Origin: an uncultured Nitrospirota bacterium
GTDB taxonomy: Bacteria > Nitrospirota > Nitrospiria > Nitrospirales > UBA8639
Reading direction: 5' to 3'
Length of the DNA: 64,000 nucleotides
NCBI GenBank assembly: GCA_937139405.1
Contig: CAKZPV010000033.1
Coordinates: 1 to 64,000 of the forward strand
Below, piece after piece: positions 1-55,810 of the stretch. Every line of letters starts with the position of its first letter. Position 1 is the first letter of the stretch. Made by a program: the position numbers and the translations under genes. Below the pieces are notes generated by a model, which ran no database searches, was not told the origin of the DNA, and saw only the letters and a list, made by a program, of their open reading frames with translations.

Positions 1-871
1 TGGCATATCCTCCGAAGAGCTGAGTCATTTCTCGACGAACAGCCATGGCCCAAATACGCCACCGTTCATTGGTATTGTGACTTCTCAGATCATACCGAAT
101 TTGCCATCTACCATCTCTTACAAAAGGGTAGACAAAGAGTGGATCGCCCACCCCGTTCTCCTGAATATCGCCATTCAACGCCTGGAATCCTGTGATGGTG
201 ACCACCCAGTCTTGGGCAGACCATCGCGTTCCAATTGTTCCGTTGAAAGGCACAGTAAATCTCTCGAACTCAAACGGGGTCGGGCTGATTTGGTTAGGCC
301 GTATTGAACTGATGTCTGAAGAGTTAATCGAGCCATCCACAACCTCGACTGTAGTCACAGAATCTGGTCCGACAACTCCGGTAGGACCCAAAGGACCGGC
401 TGGGCCAGGGGGCCCCTGCACATTCGCTTGACGGCCATCGTCACACGACACAATGGTGCCAATAATGGTGCAATCTGTCCCATCTTCTCCTGGTTCACCT
501 GGTGATCCGATGGCGCCAATCGTGAGGTCGAAGGTATCTTTTTTCCTGTTCCGCTGCCCTCTGGACACTTTAAGCAGGTAGTCTCCTGCCGTCAGATCAG
601 GAGGTAGTCCGGCCACGATCTCCATGTCGGATGGGACTCCCACGATTGGTAAATCTCCCAATTCACCAAGCTGCACCTGTAAACTTCCTCGAAGATCAAA
701 GTTGCGACCCGTGATCGTCAATGTATCGTTCTCGCTATTCACTAAGACTTCAGTGATCTTAAGACTTCTCTGTACTCTGGAGTTTTGGTCAGTTGAGTAT
801 GCCGTCGAACCCACACTCATAATGCTCACGACGGCCAGCACAACGATGGTCGTCTTCGGAAAAATATTCAT
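1..871 (-). CDS. secreted collagen-like protein with IPT-like domain (partial, 3' end outside window)
   Basis: The frame is open from an ATG at 871 on the minus strand to the window edge, about 290 codons, so the C-terminus is missing. Residues 1-25 form a Sec signal peptide. Residues ~33-105 resemble an IPT/TIG immunoglobulin-like fold (a pattern of ltItGrnF, then P-dlt-aGdYlLkVsrG). A short collagen-like Gly-X-Y tract follows (GSPGEPGEDG, then GPPGPAGPLGPTG), and then a Trp-rich domain of unknown type. A GGAGG-type ribosome site lies just upstream of the start. Bacterial collagen-like proteins are usually exported adhesins or surface structures, and that role is inferred here. No partner gene is visible. 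Confidence 0.75.
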   Translation of the reverse strand, partial: MNIFPKTTIVVLAVVSIMSVGSTAYSTDQNSRVQRSLKITEVLVNSENDTLTITGRNFDLRGSLQVQLGELGDLPIVGVPSDMEIVAGLPPDLTAGDYLLKVSRGQRNRKKDTFDLTIGAIGSPGEPGEDGTDCTIIGTIVSCDDGRQANVQGPPGPAGPLGPTGVVGPDSVTTVEVVDGSINSSDISSIRPNQISPTPFEFERFTVPFNGTIGTRWSAQDWVVTITGFQALNGDIQENGVGDPLFVYPFVRDGRWQIRYDLRSHNTNERWRIWAMAVRREMTQLFGGYA

Positions 872-954
872 CACCTCCGTCCTCTCTGTTTGATACTCAG
901 ATTATGAACTCGCTGCTCATTTTCATTCCTATCAGTCGCTGCCCTCCCAGGCTA

Positions 955-983
955 GGCGAATGTCCGTTCTTTGGACATTCGCC
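955..983. other. perfect inverted repeat between convergent-edge genes
   Basis: An 11-bp perfect stem (GGCGAATGTCC / GGACATTCGCC) with a 7-nt loop lies just past the 3' end of the lactonase-like gene and before the collagen-like gene. There is no T-run on either strand, so it is either a factor-independent-terminator-like structure without the U tract or an mRNA 3'-end stabiliser. Confidence 0.5.
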
Positions 984-1039
984 ATTACCGGGTGATACAA
1001 AACCATCTCACATCCCACAATATTAATAGACCCTTCCTA

Positions 1040-2173
1040 CTATCTGGCGACCAATCCGGTCACGCTTTCTGGGATGGGCAAGGTTCCTCTCGGAGATATC
1101 TCCCCTGTGCGTTTCACAAAGAAGGCACGGATCTGACTATCTCCGTTATTGAGTGTGACTAAAAATTGATTGTTTTGGGTCAGTACCGCATCACGTACTC
1201 CCGCTCCAGTTGGGATCGGCGTGTCCTGCTTAGCGGGAAAGAAGTACTCGTATTCGCCGGAAAAATTAATACGATACAACGATACCGTGCCATCTCCCGT
1301 ATTCGTGGCGTACCCAATAGTCTGATCGCTAGACAGGACCGTCCAGCAGGTGGCCGTCCCCTGTTCAATCGAGTCGACTCTTCCTGACACTTCGCCGGTT
1401 TCACGATCCACGCGATAGGACACCGTCATGCCAGGCCCGCCATTATTGGCTTCGGTGATGTTCACGAAATCTCGATCACCAAATGAAAACCCGAATGGGG
1501 TTGGAATAAACGACGGTCGTTTTTCGGGCTTTCGCACCGGACGCCCATTCCGCTTCATCACAAAGGTCGTCAACGTATCCGTGGCTTTTTCTGTAATGAG
1601 CAACACCGTGCCTGACTTGTTAAAGCCAATCTGAGCAGGCGCGGTAAGTTGAGTCCGATCGAGAATCCGTGTGGAATTATAGATCGGTATCAAAATCCCA
1701 CCACCAGTAAATCGAAACCCACTGATGTTGTCATACCGCATACGCCGAGGATCTTCTTCCTTTCCACTACCCTCATTTAAGACGTAGACCATTGTGCCGA
1801 ATACAGTCACACTCAGAGGACGAAAACCGCCGGAAGGAAGTTTATTGACGAACTGCAAACCTGATGGTTGCAATCGAAAACTCGTGATTTCTCCACTGCC
1901 GGGACTGACCACGAACATCCATCGATCGCTTTCATCCGTTGTTAAGGCTCCTTGATTACCGAGCGGGGCACCCGTTCCAGTACCTTGTGTAGGGAATCGG
2001 CCTATTTCCTTGAGATTTCCTTGTTCATCGATGTCAAACGCGATGACATCGTTGCCACTCACTTCATTACTGGCTGTGTACACAATTGCATGCGCCAAGC
2101 CACTCAATCCGAGTATTGTCATGAGCATGGCTGTACCCATAAGATTTTTTACGTTTCTTGAAAACATGATCAT
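1040..2173 (-). CDS. secreted lactonase/YncE-like beta-propeller protein
   Basis: About 377 residues with an N-terminal signal peptide ending near GLAHA. The rest is a chain of beta-propeller blades typical of the lactonase/YVTN family (repeated patterns such as sNeVSGNdViaFdID-G and ySTR-/ATNtGDGTVSLYRI). Family members include 6-phosphogluconolactonase-like enzymes and non-enzymatic propellers, so the substrate cannot be told. Three in-frame ATGs sit close together at 2179, 2173 and 2167. The GGAG ribosome site is 7 nt from the one at 2173, so that start is preferred. The gene diverges from two TetR genes, and two perfect 16-bp palindromes lie about 250-300 bp upstream of it, which suggests TetR control. 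Confidence 0.8.
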   Translation of the reverse strand: MIMFSRNVKNLMGTAMLMTILGLSGLAHAIVYTASNEVSGNDVIAFDIDEQGNLKEIGRFPTQGTGTGAPLGNQGALTTDESDRWMFVVSPGSGEITSFRLQPSGLQFVNKLPSGGFRPLSVTVFGTMVYVLNEGSGKEEDPRRMRYDNISGFRFTGGGILIPIYNSTRILDRTQLTAPAQIGFNKSGTVLLITEKATDTLTTFVMKRNGRPVRKPEKRPSFIPTPFGFSFGDRDFVNITEANNGGPGMTVSYRVDRETGEVSGRVDSIEQGTATCWTVLSSDQTIGYATNTGDGTVSLYRINFSGEYEYFFPAKQDTPIPTGAGVRDAVLTQNNQFLVTLNNGDSQIRAFFVKRTGEISPRGTLPIPESVTGLVAR

Positions 2174-5336: not shown

Positions 5337-6689
5337 TTAAGAGGCCTCTAGCCCCTGGCTTGGTTGTGGGAGCGAGGTTGAGCCGGAAAATAATTCTGTT
5401 ACCCAGTCGATTGATCGTGCTAAAGGGCTGCTGATGGAGATAGGCGTGGTGAACGTAAAGGTGACATCGGGGGCATCAGGAGTCAAACCAATCGTCCCTA
5501 AAACATTCGTCGTAATTTGAGGTGAGAGGGCAATATTAAACCCTAAGCCTAGATTGCTCACATGGATGCTTGAGTCTGGGACTGGTTGGCCGTCTACCTT
5601 GGTCGCGAAGCGGACCAGATTGGAAAATGAAAAATTCATGGAAACTCGGTTGTTAAGCGAAATGGCCATTCCAAGACTTTGGCTAATTTGGTTCACAGGG
5701 CCTAAACTTGCCTGAATGGGTTCAGGAACAAGTGCTACGCCCGATCCGACAGGGTTAGCGGTAATCCGAATGAGAGTTTCAGAAACCGGCGGAGCATAAC
5801 TGTAACCCACTGTGCCGAATAGAATAGCCGGATCTAAGGCTTTGACGCCGGAAATGGCGGCGTCAATGAACCAGCGTCCCGTTCCCAGAGCCGCCCCTTC
5901 ATCATTCAGGCGATTTAAGAATTCTTCAACATTGGCAATGGGCCCCCCAGCGGCAATATTTTCAAAAATCTCAAATTGGCTTCGTCCGGTGGGAGCAGTA
6001 GCCCCTACTCTGAAGACCATATCGGGATACCAATCTTTTTCATACAAAAATTGGTAACTAAGCCCAAAGGTGATATCCCCTATGCCAAATTCTTCAGAAT
6101 TTTCCTCTACTTGTCCGGCGGTTTCAGTGGACACTCGAAGTCGATTGACAGTCTGAAGGAGATACGGCAATCGAAAATCAAATTGAAGACCTCTATAGAG
6201 TCCGTACCGAAATCCGATGGAAGGTGTGAATGTTTGGGTTGTGACTTTTTCTGACTCTAAATTTCCCAGAACAATAAGTGGAAGGACACTAAATCCGCTG
6301 ACAATTAATCGCGTGTTCGTACTAAAGCTATAGGCTACAGAAGGTTCCAGAACAAGCTGATCCCTTTGGAGTAAGATGCCGCCTTGTTGTACGCCGACCA
6401 GGGGAATTCTAGTTACTTCCCGTTCATCCTCTTCTTCTGAGGCAGAAGTGGAACCTGCTGGTTCTTCTATTATGGGAAGCGCCGGCGTTGTTGGAGTCGG
6501 GGAGGGCGGAGGTTCAGTCGGAGGCTTGGGAGAAACGGGGCTGGTCGAGGCTTCAGGAGAAGGTGGAGTCGGATTCGAATCAGGGCTCTGCGCGAAAGTC
6601 GGTGGGATCAATAAAAGAATAGAAAGAACCAGTGAAGAGACAAAAGAAGTAGCCTCTAATCTAACCGAATGCCAATCTTCTGATTCCAC
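5337..6689 (-). CDS. FapF-like outer-membrane beta-barrel protein
   Basis: 450 residues from a GTG start. A signal peptide (to about A33) is followed by a Pro/Ser/Thr-rich linker (36-85), then an acidic stretch and a beta-barrel domain (~100-450) of alternating hydrophobic strands that ends near the C-terminus. The barrel begins with a GGILLQRDQLVLEPSVAYSF pattern, like the start of the barrel in FapF, the outer-membrane secretion pore of Pseudomonas functional amyloids. It is the last gene of a five-gene minus-strand operon, 4 bp after the C39 peptidase gene. The likely role is export of the upstream secreted proteins across the outer membrane. A generic phenol-degradation-type barrel is the alternative. 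Confidence 0.75.
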   Translation of the reverse strand: MESEDWHSVRLEATSFVSSLVLSILLLIPPTFAQSPDSNPTPPSPEASTSPVSPKPPTEPPPSPTPTTPALPIIEEPAGSTSASEEEDEREVTRIPLVGVQQGGILLQRDQLVLEPSVAYSFSTNTRLIVSGFSVLPLIVLGNLESEKVTTQTFTPSIGFRYGLYRGLQFDFRLPYLLQTVNRLRVSTETAGQVEENSEEFGIGDITFGLSYQFLYEKDWYPDMVFRVGATAPTGRSQFEIFENIAAGGPIANVEEFLNRLNDEGAALGTGRWFIDAAISGVKALDPAILFGTVGYSYAPPVSETLIRITANPVGSGVALVPEPIQASLGPVNQISQSLGMAISLNNRVSMNFSFSNLVRFATKVDGQPVPDSSIHVSNLGLGFNIALSPQITTNVLGTIGLTPDAPDVTFTFTTPISISSPLARSIDWVTELFSGSTSLPQPSQGLEAS

Positions 6690-6693
6690 TCAC

Positions 6694-7719
6694 TTAATTC
6701 CCACTCGTCAAGCCCTGTCCAGGCGGGGGAGAAAAGTCAAGAAAATTACCAGATGGATTTCCTAATTGGACTGTGCCTTGAAATCCCTGAACTTGGAAGG
6801 TGGAAACTAAATTTGTTCCCTCAGGGGTTTGAAAAGTAGGGATCAGGTTCGGAGATAGATGGGGACTCACAGGGTTCATGAAATGTTGAATCCGCCAAAA
6901 ATCTACTGAATCTCCGGTGGGTTTGACATTCAGCAACGTGGTCGATGGAGGGGAACTTTCCCCTTCCTTGGAGGGCGTTTCCCCGCCTGCAGTGATTAAT
7001 TCAAGTTCTTCGTCTGAGGTTATCGTATGCGGCGAGACCTTATTGGCCATCTCAGGTCGCGGTTTAATGATAAACCCGATCCCATCAATCCATACATCAA
7101 CAAATTGGCTGATGAGCATCGTTTTATTTCCGAATGCAGGGTCTGCCAAATAGACCCGATTGCCACGAACGCCTTTGACGATGACGAAATGGTTATAGTT
7201 CATCGGTCGAATAGGAACCAAAACAGGAAGTTGTTCGTCTGCCAAGGTTTCCACCAATTCCTCAAACGTCATTCCTTTATAGCCGACACTGGGAAAGCCT
7301 TTGGCCCGCGCTGCCCGCTTAAGGTCTAAGAGAGTAAACCCCTGTCGCTTGAAATACTTTTTGACTCCCTTTTCCGGGGTTTGACCAAATACGAAAATCA
7401 GTGAAATCAACTCACGTTCGGAGGTATCTTCTCCAAATCCATATCGCAATACGGTTGCGAGGGCTGCAGCTCCACAGGAGTAATCAAGGTTTTGCAAGAT
7501 AACCCGCTCTTGGCGAAGTTCTAATAAACTCTTAACGCGTTTTCCCACACGTGTCGTTCCAGCATCCAGAACCAGACTGACATCTGCTCCGAACACTGAT
7601 GCCCCCCATCCTCCAAGATTTACGAGGCCGGTCAGCAGCACTGCAGGCAGAACGTACCTGGAAAGATTTACAGCAGTTCTTGCTGTATTATTGAATTTGA
7701 ATAGGAAAGACAAAGCCAT
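6694..7719 (-). CDS. periplasmic C39-family cysteine peptidase (FapD-like) with C-terminal extension
   Basis: 341 residues from the ATG at 7719; a longer frame starts at 7761, but the signal anchor (20-45) fits the shorter form. The C39 domain spans ~60-220 with Cys82 in DYSCGAAA, His177 in NYNHFVIVKG and Asp193 in YLADPAFG, the expected triad. There is no ABC transporter attached, unlike bacteriocin exporters. After the domain, residues 236-246 read DEELELITAGG, a double-glycine-leader-like motif matching those in the three upstream secreted proteins, and a ~95-residue Pro/Ser/Gln-rich tail follows. The start overlaps the upstream gene by 32 bp, so translation is coupled. The likely role is trimming the leader-like segments of the secreted partners, and perhaps of itself. 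Confidence 0.82.
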   Translation of the reverse strand: MALSFLFKFNNTARTAVNLSRYVLPAVLLTGLVNLGGWGASVFGADVSLVLDAGTTRVGKRVKSLLELRQERVILQNLDYSCGAAALATVLRYGFGEDTSERELISLIFVFGQTPEKGVKKYFKRQGFTLLDLKRAARAKGFPSVGYKGMTFEELVETLADEQLPVLVPIRPMNYNHFVIVKGVRGNRVYLADPAFGNKTMLISQFVDVWIDGIGFIIKPRPEMANKVSPHTITSDEELELITAGGETPSKEGESSPPSTTLLNVKPTGDSVDFWRIQHFMNPVSPHLSPNLIPTFQTPEGTNLVSTFQVQGFQGTVQLGNPSGNFLDFSPPPGQGLTSGN

Positions 7720-8707
7720 TTCCTGTTTGGACAATGTGTCCACTGGCGCGACATTGGACACAAATATTCATGTTTAAGAGCATGTTTTGAACCTGAAACG
7801 CGTTCCCACTCAAAATAGGGTTTCCAGTAAAGTTCAAGTTGGGCTGGCTCGGCGCATTGGGTGCAACCGGATTCGCGGTTGGAATTTGTGCGGTTCCAGA
7901 GCCAGTGGTGCCGCCTCCGGCGTCGAATGAAAATCGCACACCTGGAGTTTCAGTAAGTAGGGCTGGGTCGACCGATTCCGGAACTCCAGGCTGGATTGGA
8001 GAATTCGGACTGATGGCACCTGAGGAAGCTGGGGAAACAGGATTAGAAGCCACGGCAATTGCCTGCGAAGCAGCCTTCACCGCCTCAGATGCAGCCGCGA
8101 TCGCCGGAGCAGACACCTGGACATTCGGAGAACTTTGTGCGGAGACTCCTTGCAAGGCTGTGGTTGCGACTTTGAGCGCTTCGGTGGCTGCAGAAATAGC
8201 CGGCGTCCCATTTTGCACTGAATTTTGTATGAGGTTTTGGTCGGCTGCCTGAAGCGCTTTGGAGGCGGCAAGTATGGATGGACTCGTGTGAGCCGGATCG
8301 ACTTGGAGTGCTCCAATTGCGGAAGAGGCTGCCTTTAGAGCCTCTGACGCCGAATTCACTGCTCCCACACCACTATGAGATGAGATCGTTTCCAGCGCGG
8401 CCGAAGCTGCCTGAACGGCTTTGGTTGCGACCGGTAACCCAGCGTGAACATTCAGAGTGGATGCGGCTTCAATGGCGGCAGAGGCTGCTTGAATAGCTAC
8501 TGACGCTGAACGAACCCCGGCAGGCGTCGAGGGTGCGACAGGAGTCGAAAGGGCTGAAGGGGGAAGAATGTCAATTGAGAAGGATCCCGATGCCGTAATC
8601 GAATCAAGTTCCCCATCCGTTAAGGGCTGGGCTCCAAACGCAGTATGAAGGCCCAGCCCACCGGTAAGGATCAAAAAACTTAGAGAAATACGAAGTAGGT
8701 TTCTCAT
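7688..8707 (-). CDS. secreted Ala-rich repeat protein with leader-like motif and C-terminal CxxC
   Basis: 339 residues. A signal peptide (1-25) is followed by ELDSITASG at 33-41, resembling the target of C39 peptidases. Residues ~60-225 are low-complexity Ala/Ser-rich helical repeats of the type SAaxAIxAAS. A Pro/Asn-rich spacer follows, then a C-terminal segment with NICVQC (CxxC). FapC amyloid subunits also carry a C-terminal CxxC, but the Ala-rich repeats here are unlike known Fap repeats. It is the third gene of the operon and overlaps the peptidase gene. It is probably exported to the surface; its structural role is unknown. Confidence 0.72.
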   Translation of the reverse strand: MRNLLRISLSFLILTGGLGLHTAFGAQPLTDGELDSITASGSFSIDILPPSALSTPVAPSTPAGVRSASVAIQAASAAIEAASTLNVHAGLPVATKAVQAASAALETISSHSGVGAVNSASEALKAASSAIGALQVDPAHTSPSILAASKALQAADQNLIQNSVQNGTPAISAATEALKVATTALQGVSAQSSPNVQVSAPAIAAASEAVKAASQAIAVASNPVSPASSGAISPNSPIQPGVPESVDPALLTETPGVRFSFDAGGGTTGSGTAQIPTANPVAPNAPSQPNLNFTGNPILSGNAFQVQNMLLNMNICVQCRASGHIVQTGNGFVFPIQIQ

Positions 8708-8752
8708 CTTTTTTTCGATTCGTTTTACTCAAATCACCCATTCAACCAAAAT

Positions 8753-9643
8753 TTACTGGTTGGCATGTGCGATGTTGGTATTGAAGGCTCCGGTCGTTCC
8801 TGTTGAAGCAACCAGAGGAGTTCCTCTGAACTGAATGCCAGTATTGACTTGTTTCACGACCCCTGAGGTATCCCCCGCAATGGGATTGGCAAAGGTGTCG
8901 GATGAACCAGGGATCAGACCCAATCCACCAGAAGCAATATTTAAATTTAAGGCCATTTGGGCGCGGCCAACGACATTGCTGAAAAATAACGTCGATAGAT
9001 CCTTTTGCGCTTCGGATTCACTGAATGTCAATTTGAACTGAGCGTTGTTGCTCACGGCTGCATGGGATTCCCCTTCGCTGGATTCTGAATTGACAATGAC
9101 ATCAGCCGAAGCACTGGCAGCAGGGGAAATGGCTACGACAGCCTCGGCATCCCCAGCGATTACTCCAGGAGCATGCCCGCCCACGAGCTTTCCTGATCCG
9201 CCACTGCAATTGCCATATCCCGAGCACGGAGCCGCCTCAGCATATGCTGTCCCAACTTTGACCGTATCGGGATCAGGGAGTGTACTACCCCAGCTTTGTG
9301 CGCTGAAGTTTCGTTGGTCCGTGCCAGCCACGCCTCCGTTCGCGGATAAGACATTGAGATTCGTCATGAGCTGTAATTCACCGACGACATTTTGGATGGT
9401 CAATGCTCGGATACCATCTTGTGCACGAGGAACCTGAAAGTCGAGTTCAAAAACGCTGTCATCGACGTAGGCGACGCTGGACCCCTTTGCTCCTTCGGAA
9501 TTAAGGACCACTGGATCGCCCGACGCCGAAATTTTATCGAGTTGATCATCTTCAAGCGCTTCGAGGGCAAACGCTAGAGAAAAAGGCAAGGCGAGGACCC
9601 CTACCAATGTGCCGATCATAAAAGGATAGTGTTTTGTTTTCAT
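8753..9643 (-). CDS. secreted two-repeat protein, amyloid-subunit-like (paralogue of the next gene)
   Basis: 296 residues from the ATG at 9643 (an AGGAGA site lies about 10 nt upstream; a longer frame begins at 9682). A signal peptide ends near residue 26 and QLDKISASG follows at 34-42. The body has two copies of a ~90-residue unit, each with an acidic/Ser opening, a central aLtiqNVvGelQlmtNLNv-type strand block and an ending with Q-x-W/R-G-S/T. It shares this architecture with the 270-residue product of the upstream gene. Low aromatic content, high Gly/Asn/Ser content and operon context point to a secreted structural (fibre) subunit. Confidence 0.75.
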   Translation of the reverse strand: MKTKHYPFMIGTLVGVLALPFSLAFALEALEDDQLDKISASGDPVVLNSEGAKGSSVAYVDDSVFELDFQVPRAQDGIRALTIQNVVGELQLMTNLNVLSANGGVAGTDQRNFSAQSWGSTLPDPDTVKVGTAYAEAAPCSGYGNCSGGSGKLVGGHAPGVIAGDAEAVVAISPAASASADVIVNSESSEGESHAAVSNNAQFKLTFSESEAQKDLSTLFFSNVVGRAQMALNLNIASGGLGLIPGSSDTFANPIAGDTSGVVKQVNTGIQFRGTPLVASTGTTGAFNTNIAHANQ

Positions 9644-9698
9644 AATTGTTGTGTCTCCTGCTTGCGATATTTCCACTTTCATGCACGAGGAACCGGTT

Positions 9699-9725
9699 GC
9701 GGGTGAGGGCTAATCCCTCACCCGC
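9699..9725. other. intercistronic hairpin after the first amyloid-like gene
   Basis: An 11-bp perfect GC-rich stem (GCGGGTGAGGG / CCCTCACCCGC) with a 5-nt loop lies between the first and second genes of the operon, without a T-run on the minus strand. Such structures commonly act as 3'-end stabilisers or partial terminators, raising the output of the promoter-proximal gene over the distal ones. Confidence 0.65.
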
Positions 9726-9759
9726 GTTCCGTTTCCTGTTTTTAATTACACAGGCATCC

Positions 9760-10572
9760 TTACAATTTAGCGTTAGCAACAATATCGGCCGCATTTGCCG
9801 GAGTCCCACGATATTGCTCAATCCTGTTCGATTGTCGCGTACCACTGTTGGCGCCACCAGCAGTGAATCCTGTCCCTGAGGCTCCACCCGCAACGATGTT
9901 GAGCGCATTGGCCACTTGATTCAACCCAAAGACATTATTCACGGTCAGTGCATTCAGGTTGCTCTGTGACTCGGTCTCAATCAGGCCGGCGATTTTAACT
10001 TCGACGTCATTCTCAGCTTCTGCTTCGCCAAACTTGGATCGTGCATCGGCGATTTCATCGGCAAATGCCCAGAGGAAGCCAATTTTTCCGGCTTCAGCAG
10101 CTGCATTTCCGCCATTACCGGAATTCTGCACAATAAGGCCCTTGACTCTGGCACCTTTACCTCCAGGGGCTGCTACACCATCAACAGTGACATAATCCAT
10201 GGCTTTGGATGCTCCCCAACTCTGAACAATTTTGTTTTTTTGGTTGCTAGAATCCGTCGTCCCATCTGCAACTTGGATATTGGTGCCGGTGGCAACCTGG
10301 TTCTCACCAAAGACGTTGTTCAACGTTAGTGCCCTGAGCTGATGCTGAGACTTAGTTTGAATGGTGCCGGCAATCTTGTACTTTTGATCATTCTCTGCTT
10401 CAGCATCACCTTTTACGGACGTTGCCATCGCTATTTTAGGTTGACCAGCTGCGGTCACTTGATCAAGCTCTGCATCATTAATGACGGATTTTGCCGCAAG
10501 ACTTGGTGTACTGAATGCAGCTACTAATGCCAATGTACTCATTCCAGTGAGAAGTGTACGTACTCTGCTCAT
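9760..10572 (-). CDS. secreted two-repeat protein, probable major subunit of an amyloid-like fibre
   Basis: 270 residues. A signal peptide ends about residue 27 and ELDQVTAAG follows at 35-43. Two clear repeats of ~75-90 residues follow, with the common pattern G(D/E)AEAEND-x3-KIAG-x-I-x-T-x-SQ-x2-L-x-ALT-x-NNVFG-x-NQVA-x3-NI, then a loop and an N-x-I-x-Q-x2-G ending. Such Asn/Gln-containing strand-loop repeats are typical of functional amyloid subunits, though sequence identity to FapB/FapC is not evident by eye. An AGGAGG ribosome site is 7 nt before the ATG. As the first gene of the operon, just before a strong hairpin, it is likely the most expressed. A sigma-54-type promoter lies ~250 bp upstream. 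Confidence 0.78.
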   Translation of the reverse strand: MSRVRTLLTGMSTLALVAAFSTPSLAAKSVINDAELDQVTAAGQPKIAMATSVKGDAEAENDQKYKIAGTIQTKSQHQLRALTLNNVFGENQVATGTNIQVADGTTDSSNQKNKIVQSWGASKAMDYVTVDGVAAPGGKGARVKGLIVQNSGNGGNAAAEAGKIGFLWAFADEIADARSKFGEAEAENDVEVKIAGLIETESQSNLNALTVNNVFGLNQVANALNIVAGGASGTGFTAGGANSGTRQSNRIEQYRGTPANAADIVANAKL

Positions 10573-10819
10573 GGGAATCCTCCTTCTACGCTAAGTGAAT
10601 TAAAAAATAAGACGTCCTGTTAATTGACCTAAAAAGCCATATCTCACCTGCACGATATTTTTGTGCTTGAGCTATGACTGGATCGCTTCGCCTGTCCTCC
10701 TTCCTCGTTTTCCGATCCAATTTCTCCAGGCCAGGGAGAAAATATTTGTATAAAACCTTGAATTGTCGATTCGTTGTCAGACCTGCAAGACATTACAGGC
10801 ATCGTAAGAATGTATACAC

Positions 10820-10833
10820 GCAAAGCGTATGCC
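10820..10833 (-). promoter_or_regulatory. sigma-54-type (-24/-12) promoter of the Fap-like operon
   Basis: On the minus strand the sequence reads GGCATACGCTTTGC: GG and GC separated by exactly 10 bp, with GGCA at -24 and TTTGC at -12, close to the consensus TGGCAC-N5-TTGC. Transcription would start near 10808, giving a leader of about 235 nt before the ATG at 10572. A sigma-54 activator gene lies divergently upstream. Confidence 0.6.
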
Positions 10834-10982
10834 TTTTGGGGAACGAATTTTTTTTATCCAACGGTTCAAAACTAAATATTTGTAAATATTAAAGAAATGA
10901 CATCGTTGAGATAGGGGCCTAACAATACGACGGCCATCTCAGAAAGAGAAAAGAAACGTGGATTCAGAAATCTGGTTCACAT

Positions 10983-11588: not shown

Positions 11589-12986
11589 ATGGGAACCGTC
11601 TTATTTTTTGGTCCTTTTCATACCGAATTGCAACACTGTTTTCAGGTACTCGGAGCGTCTTGTGCTGAAGTGTTTTGGGAAAAGCATGAGAAGGGATTTC
11701 TTGAGCAGCTCAAGCACCTCGAGCCGTCCCTCGTTATTGTAGAAAGTCGTACTCAGAGTCGTGCATGTAGAACTCTGACCGAAACTGTCCTCGCGCATTC
11801 CCCCCATACCACAGTCATCATGTTGACAGAGGGGGGGAGCTGTCCCGATACCCACCGGATTGGCCCAAGGTTTGAATCCGTCTGCCAAGCCCGCCATACC
11901 GATGCGAAAAATTTAATTCTCGCCGCTGAAAATGTGTTATGTGGTGGGGCACTTTCTCCTTCGAATTCGATTCCGGGCTTATTTGGCGGAATGTCCAACC
12001 CGTCTATGAAACATTTAGAGGCGATGGTCAAACAAATAGCCGATACGGACGCCATGATATTGATTCAGGGAGAAAGCGGAGTGGGAAAGGGTGTTATGGC
12101 TTCCCACATTCATACTCACTCCCGTAGATGTGACAAACCATTCATTAAGGTCAATTGTGCGGCGCTTCCGAGTGAGTTGTTGGAGTCTGAATTATTTGGG
12201 TTTGAGCGAGGCGCATTTACTGGGGCTCTCCAGGCGAAACCTGGTAAGTTCGAATGTGCCGATAATGGCACACTCTTATTGGATGAAATTGGGGAAATGC
12301 CCCTGTCCATGCAGGCGAAACTTCTCCATGTCCTAGAGGATAATCAGTTTTCACGTCTTGGGGCCTCGAAGGATATTCATGTGGATGTGAGGGTATTGGT
12401 TGCGACCAACCGAGACCTCAAATTGGCTGTCAAGAGGGGAACATTTCGGAAAGATCTGTATTATCGATTGAAAGTGGTGAACTTGACCATTCCCCCTATA
12501 CGAGACCGTCTTGAGGAGATTCCTTTGTTAGTTGAATACTTTGTTGAAAAGTTTGCTAAACAATATGATCGACCTCGATTACAGTTCTCTCAAAATATAC
12601 GGGCGATACTTCAATCTTACCGGTGGCCAGGGAATGTCAGAGAGTTAGAAAATCTCATAAAACGGGCCGTCATTTTGCAAGATGACAGCTTTATTGAACA
12701 AGAACTCAAGCTCGATGAGTTACATGACCAAGTGGGGACGGGTCAAACTTTTTTAAGTGGTGGGTTGAAGGCAATTTCACGTAAGGCCTGTCGTGAGGCG
12801 GAGAGAGAAGTTATTTTGAGTACGTTACAACATACTCATTGGAATCGGACGCTGACGGCTCAAATTTTACAAATTAGTTATAAAACCCTTTTATACAAAA
12901 TGCAGGGAGTCGGTTTGGGAGGATCTGATCAGGAACGTCAGAACTTCGACGATGAGAATGGTGTACAGAAGGATATGGTGTCCTAA
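11589..12986 (+). CDS. sigma-54-dependent activator with degenerate receiver domain
   Basis: 465 residues. The N-terminal ~115 residues have a receiver-like outline, but Glu52 stands where the phospho-acceptor Asp is expected (VIVESRT), so control by a histidine kinase is unlikely. The AAA+ domain has Walker A GESGVGKG (161-168), the sigma-54-contacting GAFTGA (208-213) and Walker B LLLDEIGE (229-236). A Fis-type helix-turn-helix ends the protein (~425-455). An AAGGAG ribosome site is 8 nt before the ATG. It is divergent from the Fap-like operon, which has a -24/-12 promoter, so it is the natural candidate activator. A TPR gene follows and is probably co-transcribed. Confidence 0.9.
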   Translation: MGTVLFFGPFHTELQHCFQVLGASCAEVFWEKHEKGFLEQLKHLEPSLVIVESRTQSRACRTLTETVLAHSPHTTVIMLTEGGSCPDTHRIGPRFESVCQARHTDAKNLILAAENVLCGGALSPSNSIPGLFGGMSNPSMKHLEAMVKQIADTDAMILIQGESGVGKGVMASHIHTHSRRCDKPFIKVNCAALPSELLESELFGFERGAFTGALQAKPGKFECADNGTLLLDEIGEMPLSMQAKLLHVLEDNQFSRLGASKDIHVDVRVLVATNRDLKLAVKRGTFRKDLYYRLKVVNLTIPPIRDRLEEIPLLVEYFVEKFAKQYDRPRLQFSQNIRAILQSYRWPGNVRELENLIKRAVILQDDSFIEQELKLDELHDQVGTGQTFLSGGLKAISRKACREAEREVILSTLQHTHWNRTLTAQILQISYKTLLYKMQGVGLGGSDQERQNFDDENGVQKDMVS

Positions 12987-13077
12987 TGATCGAAATTTCT
13001 TTCCTGCAATTATCTCAGTAGGTCAAATGCGAAATTCTCTCCCCCTTGTGAGAGGGGACATGGGAAGGAGAAACAAC

Positions 13078-13959
13078 ATGAAAAAGCGAAGTGCATTGTC
13101 CTTAACCATGTGGTCTTTCGGAGTATGTTGTTTTATGGTTTTGAATGTTGGAATGGGGGTAATTCTCGCCATAGCAGAAACGACAGCCGAAGATTTTGTT
13201 CGAATGGGCATGAAACATTATGCGAAGGGACAGTTTCAAGACGCGCTGGGGGTGTTTGACAAGGCCATTGTCGTCAAGCCGGACTATGCCTTGGCATATA
13301 CCAATCGGGGATTGATCAAATATCGGCTAGGCGATATCACAGCTGCCATCGCTGATCATTCACACGCTATTGAACTGGAACCTAAGATGGCTGAGGCCTA
13401 TACCAATCGAGGTGCAGCACGATTAGCACAAGGGGACCTGAATGGCTCCATCGCTGATCATTCCGAAGCGTTAAAGCTAGAGCCTAACCTCGTGACTGCA
13501 TTAAATAATCGTGGACTCGTTCGTATTCAATCTGGGGATACGGCCGGAGGGATCAGCGATCTGGATAAGGCGTTAGAAATCAACCCCTTTGATCCCTCCG
13601 CATACACGAATCGTGCGGCAGCTCATCTTCAACTCAAAGATTTAGAAAAAGCGGCGATGGATGCGTCTAAAGCCTTGGTCTTGAATCCGAAACTCTCCGA
13701 AGCTCATGTGCTTAGGGGAAGGATTTACCTCGAAGCCAAAATGTTCACAAAAAGTTTGGAAGATTTTGATAAAGCTGTGGAGCTGAACCCTCAATTAGGA
13801 ACGGCGTATCTGAATCGAGGCGCAGTGAAGGTTGCCCTGAAAAATTACGAAGCAGGAATACATGATTTAAATAAGGGCGTTGAACTTCTTCCTGTATTGG
13901 AATCTGAAGCCAAACGGTGGATTCAACATGCCCAAGCCCAACTTGAGAAAAAACAATGA
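13078..13959 (+). CDS. secreted TPR-repeat protein
   Basis: 293 residues from the ATG at 13078, which follows a GGAAGGAG ribosome site; the frame extends further upstream but without a good start. A signal peptide or membrane anchor occupies residues ~8-35. The rest is about seven tandem tetratricopeptide repeats (recurring A-Y-tNRG-x8-GD-x2-aI-D-x-A-leleP pattern). TPR proteins are scaffolds. The location behind the sigma-54 activator suggests a role in the same process as the Fap-like operon, but this is inferred from position only. Confidence 0.88.
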   Translation: MKKRSALSLTMWSFGVCCFMVLNVGMGVILAIAETTAEDFVRMGMKHYAKGQFQDALGVFDKAIVVKPDYALAYTNRGLIKYRLGDITAAIADHSHAIELEPKMAEAYTNRGAARLAQGDLNGSIADHSEALKLEPNLVTALNNRGLVRIQSGDTAGGISDLDKALEINPFDPSAYTNRAAAHLQLKDLEKAAMDASKALVLNPKLSEAHVLRGRIYLEAKMFTKSLEDFDKAVELNPQLGTAYLNRGAVKVALKNYEAGIHDLNKGVELLPVLESEAKRWIQHAQAQLEKKQ

Positions 13960-37864: not shown

Positions 37865-38707
37865 TTAGTATTCTGATAAGAGTCCCCCACCTCGCACGCA
37901 CCAGGCAAATAAGTAGCTGGCCTTCACGTTTCTGGTGATTTCCCCATTACCCAAGTGTCCCTCCCACGCGAGTGCGTGCTGATCTGCATTTGTCGTTGCC
38001 GACCAATAGCGGGAGGGCAAGATATTCGCAAACGGGTGGCCTATGGGTAAGGCAGGATTGCTTTGAGTGGTATCGAGCAAGCTTGCCAGCTCGTTGACCG
38101 ACGGGAGCCGCCAGCCCTTGCGACCAAACACTGTGCGGGATGTGCATGCTACTCGAGCATCTGACCATTGGACGGTCGTCGATTGTGGCGTCTGCTCCCA
38201 GACCAGTCCCGTTTCTCGGTCTAAGACAGCTGCACCACCCATAACAAGCACAAATCGCATAGCCGTCGGGAGAACTTTGTCCCATAAAGGGGCCGCATTG
38301 AGGCCTCCGTTCTCAGCGACCGTAAAGGCTGGGAAGGTAAAGTCGGTATACAACCAATTCCCCTCTTCAAAGTGCCACAGTCGGACATACAAGGTACTGC
38401 CGTTGATGGGCAGATTACTGACTGCTCCAGACGTCGAGGTCCCCAATGAGCCGCTGTCATGGAGATTCTTCGCTCCAAGCGTCGAGCCGACATTGAGCCA
38501 ATACTCCGTAATATTTGACGAGCCGGTCCATGAAAAGATCTGGCTGGCATCAGTGAGCGTCGTGCCATTGGAAGGACTGATACTTGAAATAGCGGCCATT
38601 GCGGTGCTGCTTCCCCACCCCAAGATCGTGATGAGGGCCATACCTACGAGTAGTCTCGTGACCGATGGATTGATGGGGGACATACGATACCTTTGCTTTC
38701 TCCACAT
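37865..38707 (-). CDS. secreted DUF1566 (Lcl-like) protein, copy D
   Basis: About 280 residues from the ATG at 38707 (AGGAAGG 8 nt upstream), as in the tandem copies. A signal peptide (ending STAMA) precedes an Ig-like domain (ISPSNGTTL, FSWTGSSNITEYWLNVGS) and a C-terminal DUF1566 domain with GLVWEQ, KGWRLPSVNELASL, RYWSATT and AWCVRGG. This domain resembles C-type-lectin-fold binding modules. Three homologues lie at 52839-55810 beyond the genomic island. Likely surface-attached; ligand unknown. Confidence 0.85.
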   Translation of the reverse strand: MWRKQRYRMSPINPSVTRLLVGMALITILGWGSSTAMAAISSISPSNGTTLTDASQIFSWTGSSNITEYWLNVGSTLGAKNLHDSGSLGTSTSGAVSNLPINGSTLYVRLWHFEEGNWLYTDFTFPAFTVAENGGLNAAPLWDKVLPTAMRFVLVMGGAAVLDRETGLVWEQTPQSTTVQWSDARVACTSRTVFGRKGWRLPSVNELASLLDTTQSNPALPIGHPFANILPSRYWSATTNADQHALAWEGHLGNGEITRNVKASYLFAWCVRGGGLLSEY

Positions 38708-39386
38708 GGGCGCACCTTCCTGTTTGGTTCCATGCAGCGAAAAAAAAGAGAATAACCATGACCCACTCCCTCTGGCCATCATATTAAAACTGCGGCGTTA
38801 CGCTATCATACAGCCTCAAGTATTCACATCCCTAGAAAGAGGGGTGTCACTTTCTAGAAAAGCAAGAAAGCCATATATCTGAACAGGGTAGTGCAAGTAG
38901 GCCATGGGGTGGAGCCGCTTTCAAGCATCTCATGTTTCCCCAATTGCCCAATCTGCTCAGATCTCATCGAATCTCATTGTGAGAATACATTTGTTCCCTG
39001 CAAGAACTGGGAAGATGAAAGCCTCTTGTTCAACTTTTTCAGCGAAATAGATAATCCCTATTTACATCCTCGCCGTTTTCCCATGTTGCAATGCTTCTCA
39101 TTCTCAATCATGTATTGAATGTGGTCGCATCTAGAGTATTAATCGAGAGTTACGAGAGGAGGTGTGGGGCAAACTGTATGCACATGTCAGTCTCGTATTG
39201 AAAAGCAAAAGTCTGTTAACTGATGAAGGGTTTTTGTATAATGAGCTAAGCAGAGGCTTTGGTAAAAAGCTTTCTGGGTGGATCGAACGAGGTGAGCATT
39301 CAGAACGTTCGCATGTATGTTGAGCCATTCTGGTGACATTCCTTTTTTTAGGGGAAGGGATCCAGGCAAAATTGCTAAGAAAGGCT
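38708..39386. other. intergenic region upstream of the tRNA gene
   Basis: About 680 bp between the DUF1566 start and tRNA-Arg. Small open frames here lack ribosome sites and are not supported. The tRNA promoter should lie in the last part. Nothing else recognised. Confidence 0.5.
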
Positions 39387-52838: not shown

Positions 52839-53687
52839 TCAATAGACCGATAAAGGCCCTGCACCCCGAACGCACAAGACCATGTTAGGGGACCCTTTAG
52901 GTCTAAGAATCGCACCTGGTTGGTTCTGAAAGAGATCCATACTCCACATATTTGCAGGATTCGCGGCATCCACCGTTGCGGAAGCATAAGTCCCGTTTCG
53001 AATGTCAAAGGGATGGCCGGGTGGTAGGTCAGGATTGCCGGTAGGATTGTCGGGATCTATAAGGCTTGCGAGTTCTTGTATTGAGGGCAGGCGCCATCCC
53101 AACCGACCCCCGATCGTCCGGGCTGCACATTCCTGTCGCGCCTGCGTCCACGAGTATGAGGTATTCAATGGAACATTTTCTCGTTGTTCCCACACCAGCC
53201 CGGTCTCTCTGTCCAACACGGCGGCTCCACCCATCACCAGGACAAATCGCGCGGCTGCCGGGAGGACTTGATCCCACGGTGGGACGGCACTGAGCCGACC
53301 GGGAGAGGCAGAGGTGGTATAAGTGAAATCTGTGAATGGCCAGGCGCCGTTGACGCGGAACCATAAGCGCACATGAACCGTGGAGCCATCCGTCGGCAGC
53401 CCATCGACCGTGTCACTGGTCCGCGTCCCTAAGGACAAACTGTCATAAAGATCGGCTGCTCCGGGGCTGGTGCCGACGTAGAGCCACCATTCGGTGACGA
53501 CCGCCCCCCCGGCTTCCCAGGCGAATGTGGTCGTGCTTCCTGGCAGTGTCGTTCCAGGTGTCGGGCTGGTAATGGTAGGCGCGGCCAGCGCCTGGTTCGG
53601 GCCCAGGCTGACGCAAAGGGCCAGGGTCATGATGCCTAGGCACCACGTCCAGAGACCTCTGGCGGGACTTGTCTGTTCAACTCTCAT
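52839..53687 (-). CDS. secreted DUF1566 protein, tandem copy A
   Basis: 282 residues; AAGGAGG precedes the ATG at 53687. A signal peptide (1-36, ALAAP) is followed by an Ig-like domain (~37-140, SPTPGTTLPGSTTTFAWEAG, YVGTSPGAADLYDS) and a DUF1566 domain (~165-280: GLVWEQRENV, LGWRLPSIQELASLID, CVRGAG). The C-terminal 100 residues diverge from copies B and C, while the first ~140 are nearly identical. The tail GPLSVY resembles that of copy D. Likely an exported binding protein. Confidence 0.88.
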   Translation of the reverse strand: MRVEQTSPARGLWTWCLGIMTLALCVSLGPNQALAAPTITSPTPGTTLPGSTTTFAWEAGGAVVTEWWLYVGTSPGAADLYDSLSLGTRTSDTVDGLPTDGSTVHVRLWFRVNGAWPFTDFTYTTSASPGRLSAVPPWDQVLPAAARFVLVMGGAAVLDRETGLVWEQRENVPLNTSYSWTQARQECAARTIGGRLGWRLPSIQELASLIDPDNPTGNPDLPPGHPFDIRNGTYASATVDAANPANMWSMDLFQNQPGAILRPKGSPNMVLCVRGAGPLSVY

Positions 53688-54961: not shown

Positions 54962-55810
54962 TTACATTGCTCCCCGCACACACCATACGTGCCGAGTGGC
55001 AGAGGAGCTCTTATTAACTTTTTCAATGTCTGGGGCCCCCTGTGCGCCCAGTGCAAAGCCCACGACCAAAGCATCATCGGGATTCATGGGATCGACAGTT
55101 GCTGACCAATAAGCGTTCTGTACATCGGAAAAGATATTCTCTGGAACAAACGGCGAAGCTAAGGATGGGTCTTGAAGACTCTTGAGTTCGTATACCGACG
55201 GCAGGTGCCAGCCAGCCACAGCCCCTCTATGTAAAAAAGTGCCAGTTCTCAGACAATGCAGAATGGCCTGGCTCCAAGTGTAGGTCTCGCCAAAAAGGGA
55301 TGGGCGTTGCACCCATACCAGTCCGGTATTTTTATCCAATACGGCGGAGCCCTCCAGCGTCCGAACAAACCTCTTTGCCGACGGGAGGACTTGATCCCAC
55401 GGAGGAACGGCACTGAGCCGACCGGGGGAGCCAGAGGTGGTATAGGTGAAATCTGTGAATGGCCAGGCGCCATTGATGCGGTACCATAAGCGCACATGAA
55501 CCGTGGAACCATCCGTCGGCAGCCCGTTGATCGTGTCAATGATCCGGCTCCCTAAGGACGCACTGTCATAAAGATCGGCTGCTCCGGGGCTGGTGCCGAC
55601 GTACAGCCACCATTCGGTGACGGCTGCCCCCCCGGCTTCCCAGGCGAACGTGGTCGTGCTTCCTGGCAAGGGAGTTCCGGGTGTCGGGCTGGTAATGGTA
55701 GGTGAGGCCAGCGCCTGGTTCGGGCCTAGGCTGACGCAAAGGGCCAGGGTCATGATGCCTAGGCACCACGTCCAGAGACCTCTGGCGGGACTTGTCTGTT
55801 CAACTCTCAT
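54962..55810 (-). CDS. secreted DUF1566 protein, tandem copy C
   Basis: 282 residues. Same signal peptide and Ig-like part as copies A and B. The DUF1566 domain differs (GLVWVQRPSLFGETYTW, HRGAVAGWHLPSVYELKSLQD, AYWSATVD) and ends WCVRGAM. It is the first of the three in transcription order; its upstream region is not repeated. Confidence 0.88.
   Translation of the reverse strand: MRVEQTSPARGLWTWCLGIMTLALCVSLGPNQALASPTITSPTPGTPLPGSTTTFAWEAGGAAVTEWWLYVGTSPGAADLYDSASLGSRIIDTINGLPTDGSTVHVRLWYRINGAWPFTDFTYTTSGSPGRLSAVPPWDQVLPSAKRFVRTLEGSAVLDKNTGLVWVQRPSLFGETYTWSQAILHCLRTGTFLHRGAVAGWHLPSVYELKSLQDPSLASPFVPENIFSDVQNAYWSATVDPMNPDDALVVGFALGAQGAPDIEKVNKSSSATRHVWCVRGAM

Follow-up and report, generated by a model that had tools for sequence, protein, structure and literature searches.

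A probable Fap-type export operon with leader-tagged, locus-specific cargo in an uncultured Nitrospirota bacterium

The first 64,000 nucleotides of contig CAKZPV010000033.1 (288,910 bases), from the genome assembly GCA_937139405.1 of an uncultured Nitrospirota bacterium (4.46 Mb in 51 contigs), are the stretch of DNA analysed here, to which we refer as the window. Its minus strand carries, at 5337-10572, five closely spaced or overlapping open reading frames (ORFs) in the order sub1, sub2, sub3, C39 peptidase and FapF-type outer-membrane barrel. An earlier reading of the letters alone (the sequence-only reading) had described a compact five-gene operon here, and every ORF is present where it was placed. 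The products of sub1 (9760-10572, minus strand, 270 amino acids) and sub2 (8753-9643, minus strand; the ORF opens at 9682, and ATG at 9643 is the likely start) are secreted paralogues with 34% identity, and each is built of two repeats, as indicated by half-against-half scores of 165 for sub1 and 104 for sub2, where shuffling gave at most 64 in either case. The sub3 product (7688-8707, minus strand, 339 amino acids) is also secreted; it comprises a leader, an Ala/Ser-rich repetitive region with 48 Ala in 170 residues, and a C-terminal CVQC. Both the pair of two-repeat paralogues and the Ala-rich third protein with its CxxC had been recognised previously. The genes for the peptidase (6694-7719, minus strand; the ORF opens at 7761, and ATG at 7719 is the likely start) and for the barrel (5337-6689, minus strand) follow.

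The barrel is a relative of FapF: it matches the NCBIfam FapF model NF058560 with an E-value of 4.8e-40 and 137.6 bits (equivalog cut-off 700) and the FapF crystal sequences in PDB with an E-value of 7e-29, while its matches to FilC (E 9e-9) and to the Pfam family Phenol_MetA_deg (E 4e-6) are weak. It had been the start of the barrel that was said to resemble FapF; the relationship stands, but the likeness is confined to the barrel domain, amino acids 111-416 (about 5442-6359), and the N-terminus, judged from the sequence by eye, is rich in Pro, Ser, Thr and Glu where FapF has a coiled coil. The peptidase, correctly foreseen as a stand-alone periplasmic C39 enzyme, matches PF03412 (E 5.7e-17) as well as FilB (NF050078, E 9e-29) and FapD (NF058616, E 8e-26), the latter two below the equivalog cut-offs. 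Because their scores lie well below those cut-offs, we regard barrel and peptidase as relatives of the known proteins and not as confirmed orthologues. The sequence-only reading had proposed this profile comparison as a check, and since the barrel groups with FapF and the peptidase with FapD and FilB, an assignment of either to unrelated families fails. The catalytic domain is modelled confidently by AlphaFold 2 (AF2), and in a Foldseek comparison with solved structures this model comes closest to PCAT1, ComA and the LahT peptidase in complex with its leader (E about 1e-8). An alignment of 48 peptidase sequences shows no variation at Cys37, His132 and Asp148 (numbering starts at D60 of the ORF).

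None of sub1, sub2 and sub3 matches a Pfam or NCBIfam family. Compared by hhalign, sub1/sub2 reach a probability of 0.24% with FapC and 0.04% with FapB, and they show no profile similarity to the FapC-like proteins from other Nitrospirota, whereas FapC itself is aligned with those Nitrospirota proteins at 97.9% (E 6.5e-13). Together with the presence of two repeats, this agrees with the earlier remark that the repeat types differ from those of Fap. The hhalign probability for sub3 is 0.6% with FapE and, across 28 columns at the leader, 29% with Nitrospirota FapE-like proteins; its likeness to FapE-like proteins and to sub1/sub2 is limited to the leader, and outside this short element the three cargo proteins align with FapB, FapC and FapE nowhere. 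Similar C-terminal phrases had given rise to the idea that sub3 is a FapE with an insertion, which jackhmmer and hhalign do not support. The AlphaFold model of sub1 has a predicted local distance difference test (pLDDT) score of 27.7 and is uninformative on the fold either way. CxxC occurs in 7 of 150 leader-bearing cargo proteins against 0.5 expected, with three of the seven in window-type loci, and we do not rely on it.

A comparison of gene order among related genomes, also suggested beforehand, recovered the entire locus together with an adjoining sigma-54 activator in the metagenome-assembled genome UBA8639 (locus L048; peptidase identity 74%). In Nitrospirota bin371 (locus L047; peptidase identity 49%) the examined stretch has masked or missing sequence at the start of sub2 and across the sub1 region, and conservation is seen only as far as the unmasked sequence goes. 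These two are the closest named relatives and place the window organism, a member of Nitrospirales, near UBA8639. Because the locus is conserved in L048 and, where unmasked, in L047, a chance arrangement of genes is ruled out. Within the taxonomic family of the window organism, this type of locus is patchy: relatives of sub1/sub2 occur in 3 of 49 genomes (that of the window and those matching L048 and L047), and a search of 296 Nitrospirota genomes and plasmids returned no sub1 relatives beyond the genome of the window. In this whole genome the peptidase is the sole C39 match and the barrel the sole FapF match at E < 0.05. We conclude that the operon is genuine, and that the designation of the locus as Fap-like holds for barrel and peptidase, which are of Fap type by profile, but not for the cargo, which is not recognisably Fap by sequence.

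All three cargo precursors carry a short leader directly after the Sec signal, in the register of PCAT double-glycine leaders. The PCAT consensus is L(-12)xxxE(-8)L(-7)xxxxG(-2)G(-1), with residues -10 to -4 helical on the peptidase (PMC6959990). The window leaders follow the register L(-12)xxxE(-8)L(-7)..(-2)(-1): they match the consensus at -12, -8 and -7 and have a hydrophobic residue at -4, the exceptions being Q at -8 in sub2 and I at -12 in sub1, and at -2/-1 they have A-A or A-S where the consensus has G-G. We scored leaders with a 12-position matrix, for which the training set came from survey loci (described below) other than the window, L047 and L048, and each protein was shuffled 2000 times and rescored as a control. 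The leader cores are INDAELDQVTAA in sub1 (10447-10482, minus strand; score 19.5, reached by none of the 2000 shuffles), LEDDQLDKISAS in sub2 (9521-9556, minus strand; score 15.3, reached by three) and LTDGELDSITAS in sub3 (8588-8623, minus strand; score 20.5, reached by none). Since these leaders share the PCAT register, the predicted cuts lie between VINDAELDQVTAA and G in sub1, between LEDDQLDKISAS and G in sub2, and between LTDGELDSITAS and G in sub3; sub1 would accordingly read as a signal peptide, then the propeptide KSVINDAELDQVTAA, then G. When seven precursors from three genomes are aligned, D, L, D, A and G stand in fixed columns despite differing signal peptides. A scan of 220 window ORFs (30,586 residues) placed sub3, sub1, sub2 and the tail of the peptidase as the top four leader sites; a glycosyl hydrolase contains the fifth (score 13.6), after which the scores drop below 7. 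In a search of the whole genome with the leader profile A7, the sole precursors with E < 0.05 were sub1, sub2 and sub3.

The fourth site is located in a C-terminal tail of the peptidase of about 100 residues (6697-7050, minus strand), which is conserved in L048 and L047 and was not found in the other peptidase relatives inspected. The tails of the three peptidases measure about 110-175 residues and each contains a leader-like site, which in the window is TSDEELELITAG followed by G (6985-7020, minus strand; score 14.7, reached by 1 of 2000 shuffles); it reads SDEELELITAG before this G, with A-G at -2/-1. AF2 places a helix over it, at peptidase residues 191-198, with low confidence (pLDDT about 50); PCAT leaders are likewise helical when bound to the peptidase. 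Neither the shared leader motif nor the tail with its fourth copy had been noticed in the sequence-only reading. Two leader-like sites, EQELASISAAG and DRELEEIAAG, are apparently present in the L047 peptidase tail (6995-8179, plus strand). In locus L024 a C39 peptidase and a FapE-like protein with INEKEMNSLRGT are encoded by a single ORF (87-1340, plus strand), with a second hydrophobic stretch between them; this ORF is possibly a natural fusion, possibly the product of a lost stop or a sequencing error. Despite this read-through ORF, we rejected the idea that the window tail is a fused FapE, as the leader is the only part of it for which an alignment was obtained.

Our survey comprised 119 C39 loci from genomes of several phyla including Nitrospirota, from plasmid-collection records and from Pseudomonadaceae (L171, L173 and L175 duplicate L048, L094 and L047, and each such pair was counted once). 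A leader ORF was defined by a hydrophobic stretch before the leader and a position within 4 kb of the C39 gene. The linkage of leader, peptidase and barrel extends across phyla: a FapF-type barrel is encoded at most 4.5 kb from the C39 gene in 112 loci. Same-strand leader ORFs accompany the C39 gene in 93 loci, representing 53 of 65 peptidase clusters, whereas 3 loci have one on the opposite strand. Counted by ORF, a leader is present in 150 of 1528 same-strand ORFs, in 4 of 2066 opposite-strand ORFs and, when the bodies are shuffled, in 1 of 1528. Five loci (L057, L060, L062, L064 and L065) each encode four to six small secreted leader proteins beside the C39-barrel pair, mostly with leaders of the xQMDxVTAG type and with mostly unrelated bodies. 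In Marinobacter-type loci (L067, L071, L074, L118, L123 and others), the C39 peptidase has a membrane anchor at its N-terminus; its gene and that of the barrel are followed by Fil-like genes, and the cargo may be encoded elsewhere.

The leader also occurs in canonical Fap systems, where FapB and FapC are the main subunits and FapA is a chaperone. FapE of Pseudomonadaceae has the motif [LIV][STK]D.E[LM]..LRG[RK][YF] right after the signal peptide in 12 of 12 loci; the pattern recovered 11 of these, and the remaining one, L146, was recognised by eye. An element resembling the leader, typically ELSD[GS]DFA..x.SG, is present in FapA in 11 of the 12 loci (L141-L152); its detection relied on a different and less strict pattern instead of the scoring matrix, and it is weaker than the FapE leader and more distant from the signal peptide. 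The FapB and FapC ORFs that we scored have no convincing leader, apart from a score of 7.8 in one ORF at the FapC position. FapD has been described as essential for Fap secretion, with its target reported as unclear and the Fap proteins said to lack canonical C39 sequences (PMC5557850, 2017); a later paper gives the N-terminus of FapE and the periplasmic region of FapF as its presumed targets (PMC12822426). The recurrence of the tag beside the pore-protease pair in many phyla suggests what FapD cuts: the leader of FapE, the weaker one of FapA and the clear ones in many linked proteins provide a precise and testable cut site. We found no published paper stating that Fap proteins have a leader, preprints being outside the search, and claim no priority.

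The shared leader, which in this genome is unique to the cargo of the operon, best explains why peptidase, pore and cargo are encoded together. We consider it probable that the locus forms a self-contained operon which encodes both Fap-type export machinery and its leader-tagged, locus-specific cargo, the cargo being cut by the peptidase and exported by the barrel. The course that we infer for cleavage, export, self-processing, regulation and fibre formation is as follows. The precursors of sub1-sub3, each with a Sec signal peptide and a propeptide of roughly 14 residues of double-glycine type, would be delivered by Sec to the periplasm, signal peptidase taking off the first part; the FapD-like C39 peptidase would then grip the leader helix and cut after the A-S/A/G position, and the mature subunits would exit via the FapF-type barrel and probably form a surface fibre or matrix. 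We hypothesise that the peptidase, through the leader in its tail, may cut itself or stay self-inhibited until cargo displaces the tail. The neighbouring sigma-54 enhancer-binding activator, encoded divergently (11589-12986, plus strand), probably turns the operon on. Of 116 loci, 48 have such an activator in the flanks examined, among them 11 of the 12 fap loci of Pseudomonadaceae, and in P. fluorescens fap is controlled by RpoN and the enhancer-binding protein BrfA (PMC8202526, PMC13101488). A candidate -24/-12 element upstream of sub1, AGGCATACGCTTTGCG (10819-10834, minus strand), aligned with AGGCACATCGCTTGCT in L048, is weak, as it agrees with 9 of 12 consensus positions and the window contains 32 such sites, many of them expected by chance.

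The recurrence of the leader linkage, and the presence of the leader in FapE and, more weakly, in FapA but not in FapB and FapC, suggest that FapD and FapF form the core of an export module that is directed by leaders and can exchange its cargo. We see about an even chance that didermal bacteria have a general secretion pathway of this kind with FapD and FapF as its core, in which proteins would reach the periplasm via Sec, have a double-glycine-type leader recognised and cut by a periplasmic C39 peptidase, and exit via a FapF-type barrel. Unrelated cargos would join this pathway by acquiring the leader, the Pseudomonas amyloid being one user and the window operon another, with new fibre subunits and a self-tagged peptidase. 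A 2025 survey of Fap required FapB/C repeats and called Fap evolutionarily fixed; a FapD-FapF core with exchangeable cargo would escape searches of this kind. If pore and protease do handle unrelated cargo by its tag, this would be relevant to protein display and secretion engineering.

Several points weigh against these interpretations. The scoring matrix was partly trained on the survey loci, and the opposite-strand and shuffle controls limit this circularity and do not remove it. In 26 of the 119 loci there is no leader gene within 4 kb; these exceptions are chiefly the Marinobacter Fil-like loci, which have peptidase and barrel and no leader gene nearby. Leader cleavage of every cargo is no rule of the family, since FapB and FapC are without a leader. 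Finally, residue -1 is A or S, not G, in the three window precursors.

Of the other explanations, the one that deserves most weight, though we put it at appreciably less than even, is that the same leader-directed machine handles non-amyloid cargo, such as soluble adhesins or ordinary matrix proteins that are displayed on the surface or released. The cargo bodies are unrelated to FapB/FapC, sub3 with its Ala/Ser-rich region is probably helical, and many of the leader proteins linked at other loci are small and varied, all of which is consistent with this explanation; the branch of FapF/FapD with known function makes amyloid, and the Gly/Asn-containing two-repeat architecture of sub1/sub2 is as expected of stacking subunits, neither of which is decisive against it. 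It is unlikely that the locus is a true fap operon in which FapB, FapC and FapE have diverged past sequence recognition. Machinery, repeated subunits, C-terminal CxxC (in which FapC of L141 also ends) and linkage are indeed as in Fap, but sub1/sub2 are negative in the very profile comparisons that join FapC to its Nitrospirota counterparts, they have two repeats where three are near-universal in FapB/FapC (PMC12822426), all cargo has leaders, unlike FapB/FapC, and the gene order differs in that the third cargo gene lies ahead of the peptidase.

Double-glycine-type leaders with a C39 peptidase are marks of bacteriocin maturation, and some linked leader proteins in other genomes have about 100 amino acids, so that a locus for maturation and export of a bacteriocin or peptide signal has to be considered. 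We find this very improbable, given that the operon lacks an ATP-binding cassette (ABC) transporter, that peptidase and precursors have Sec signals, that the mature cargo would measure about 230-300 amino acids and that the pore is of FapF type. Even harder to credit is a barrel that serves as an uptake channel for hydrophobic compounds beside a peptidase unrelated to it, as the weak Phenol_MetA_deg match might suggest: FapF is matched much more strongly, and nearly all surveyed loci encode a barrel close to the C39 gene. We retain the leader-directed export operon as the preferred interpretation.

Elsewhere in the window, a TPR-repeat protein is encoded at 12952-13959 (plus strand), overlapping the end of the sigma-54 activator gene, and three paralogues with an Lcl C-terminal domain (PF07603) are encoded on the minus strand at 37865-38782, 52839-53687 and 54962-55810.

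Among known systems, the operon shares with Pseudomonas Fap (fapABCDEF) a FapF-type barrel, a periplasmic C39 peptidase of FapD type and repeated secreted subunits; FapE also bears the leader, and a sigma-54 activator adjoins most of the Pseudomonadaceae loci examined. It differs from Fap in that the window has no recognisable FapA, FapB, FapC or FapE bodies, its subunits have two repeats instead of three, its barrel (by eye) has no coiled coil, leaders are present on all three cargo proteins and in the peptidase tail, and the third cargo gene precedes the peptidase. Similarity to Acinetobacter Fil (FilA-FilF, a putative pilus) is seen in the peptidase, which scores slightly better against FilB than against FapD, and in the upstream secreted protein of L044, which has MDDAALSAATGQ; in contrast, the window barrel is much closer to FapF, and FilB- and FilC-like genes alone are matched in the window. 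Other Nitrospirota Fap-like loci (L020-L033) likewise combine C39 peptidase, leader protein and barrel, with a small leader protein that has a canonical RGG. Unlike in the window, the repeat proteins of L022/L023 are relatives of FapC, and one set of FapE-position leader proteins in Nitrospirota loci consists of relatives of Pseudomonas FapE (92.6%) with RGG at the site. With the PCAT double-glycine peptidases (PCAT1, ComA, LahT) the window peptidase has in common its fold and the leader register, but it is periplasmic, stand-alone and Sec-routed, and it is coupled to an outer-membrane barrel, not to an ABC transporter.

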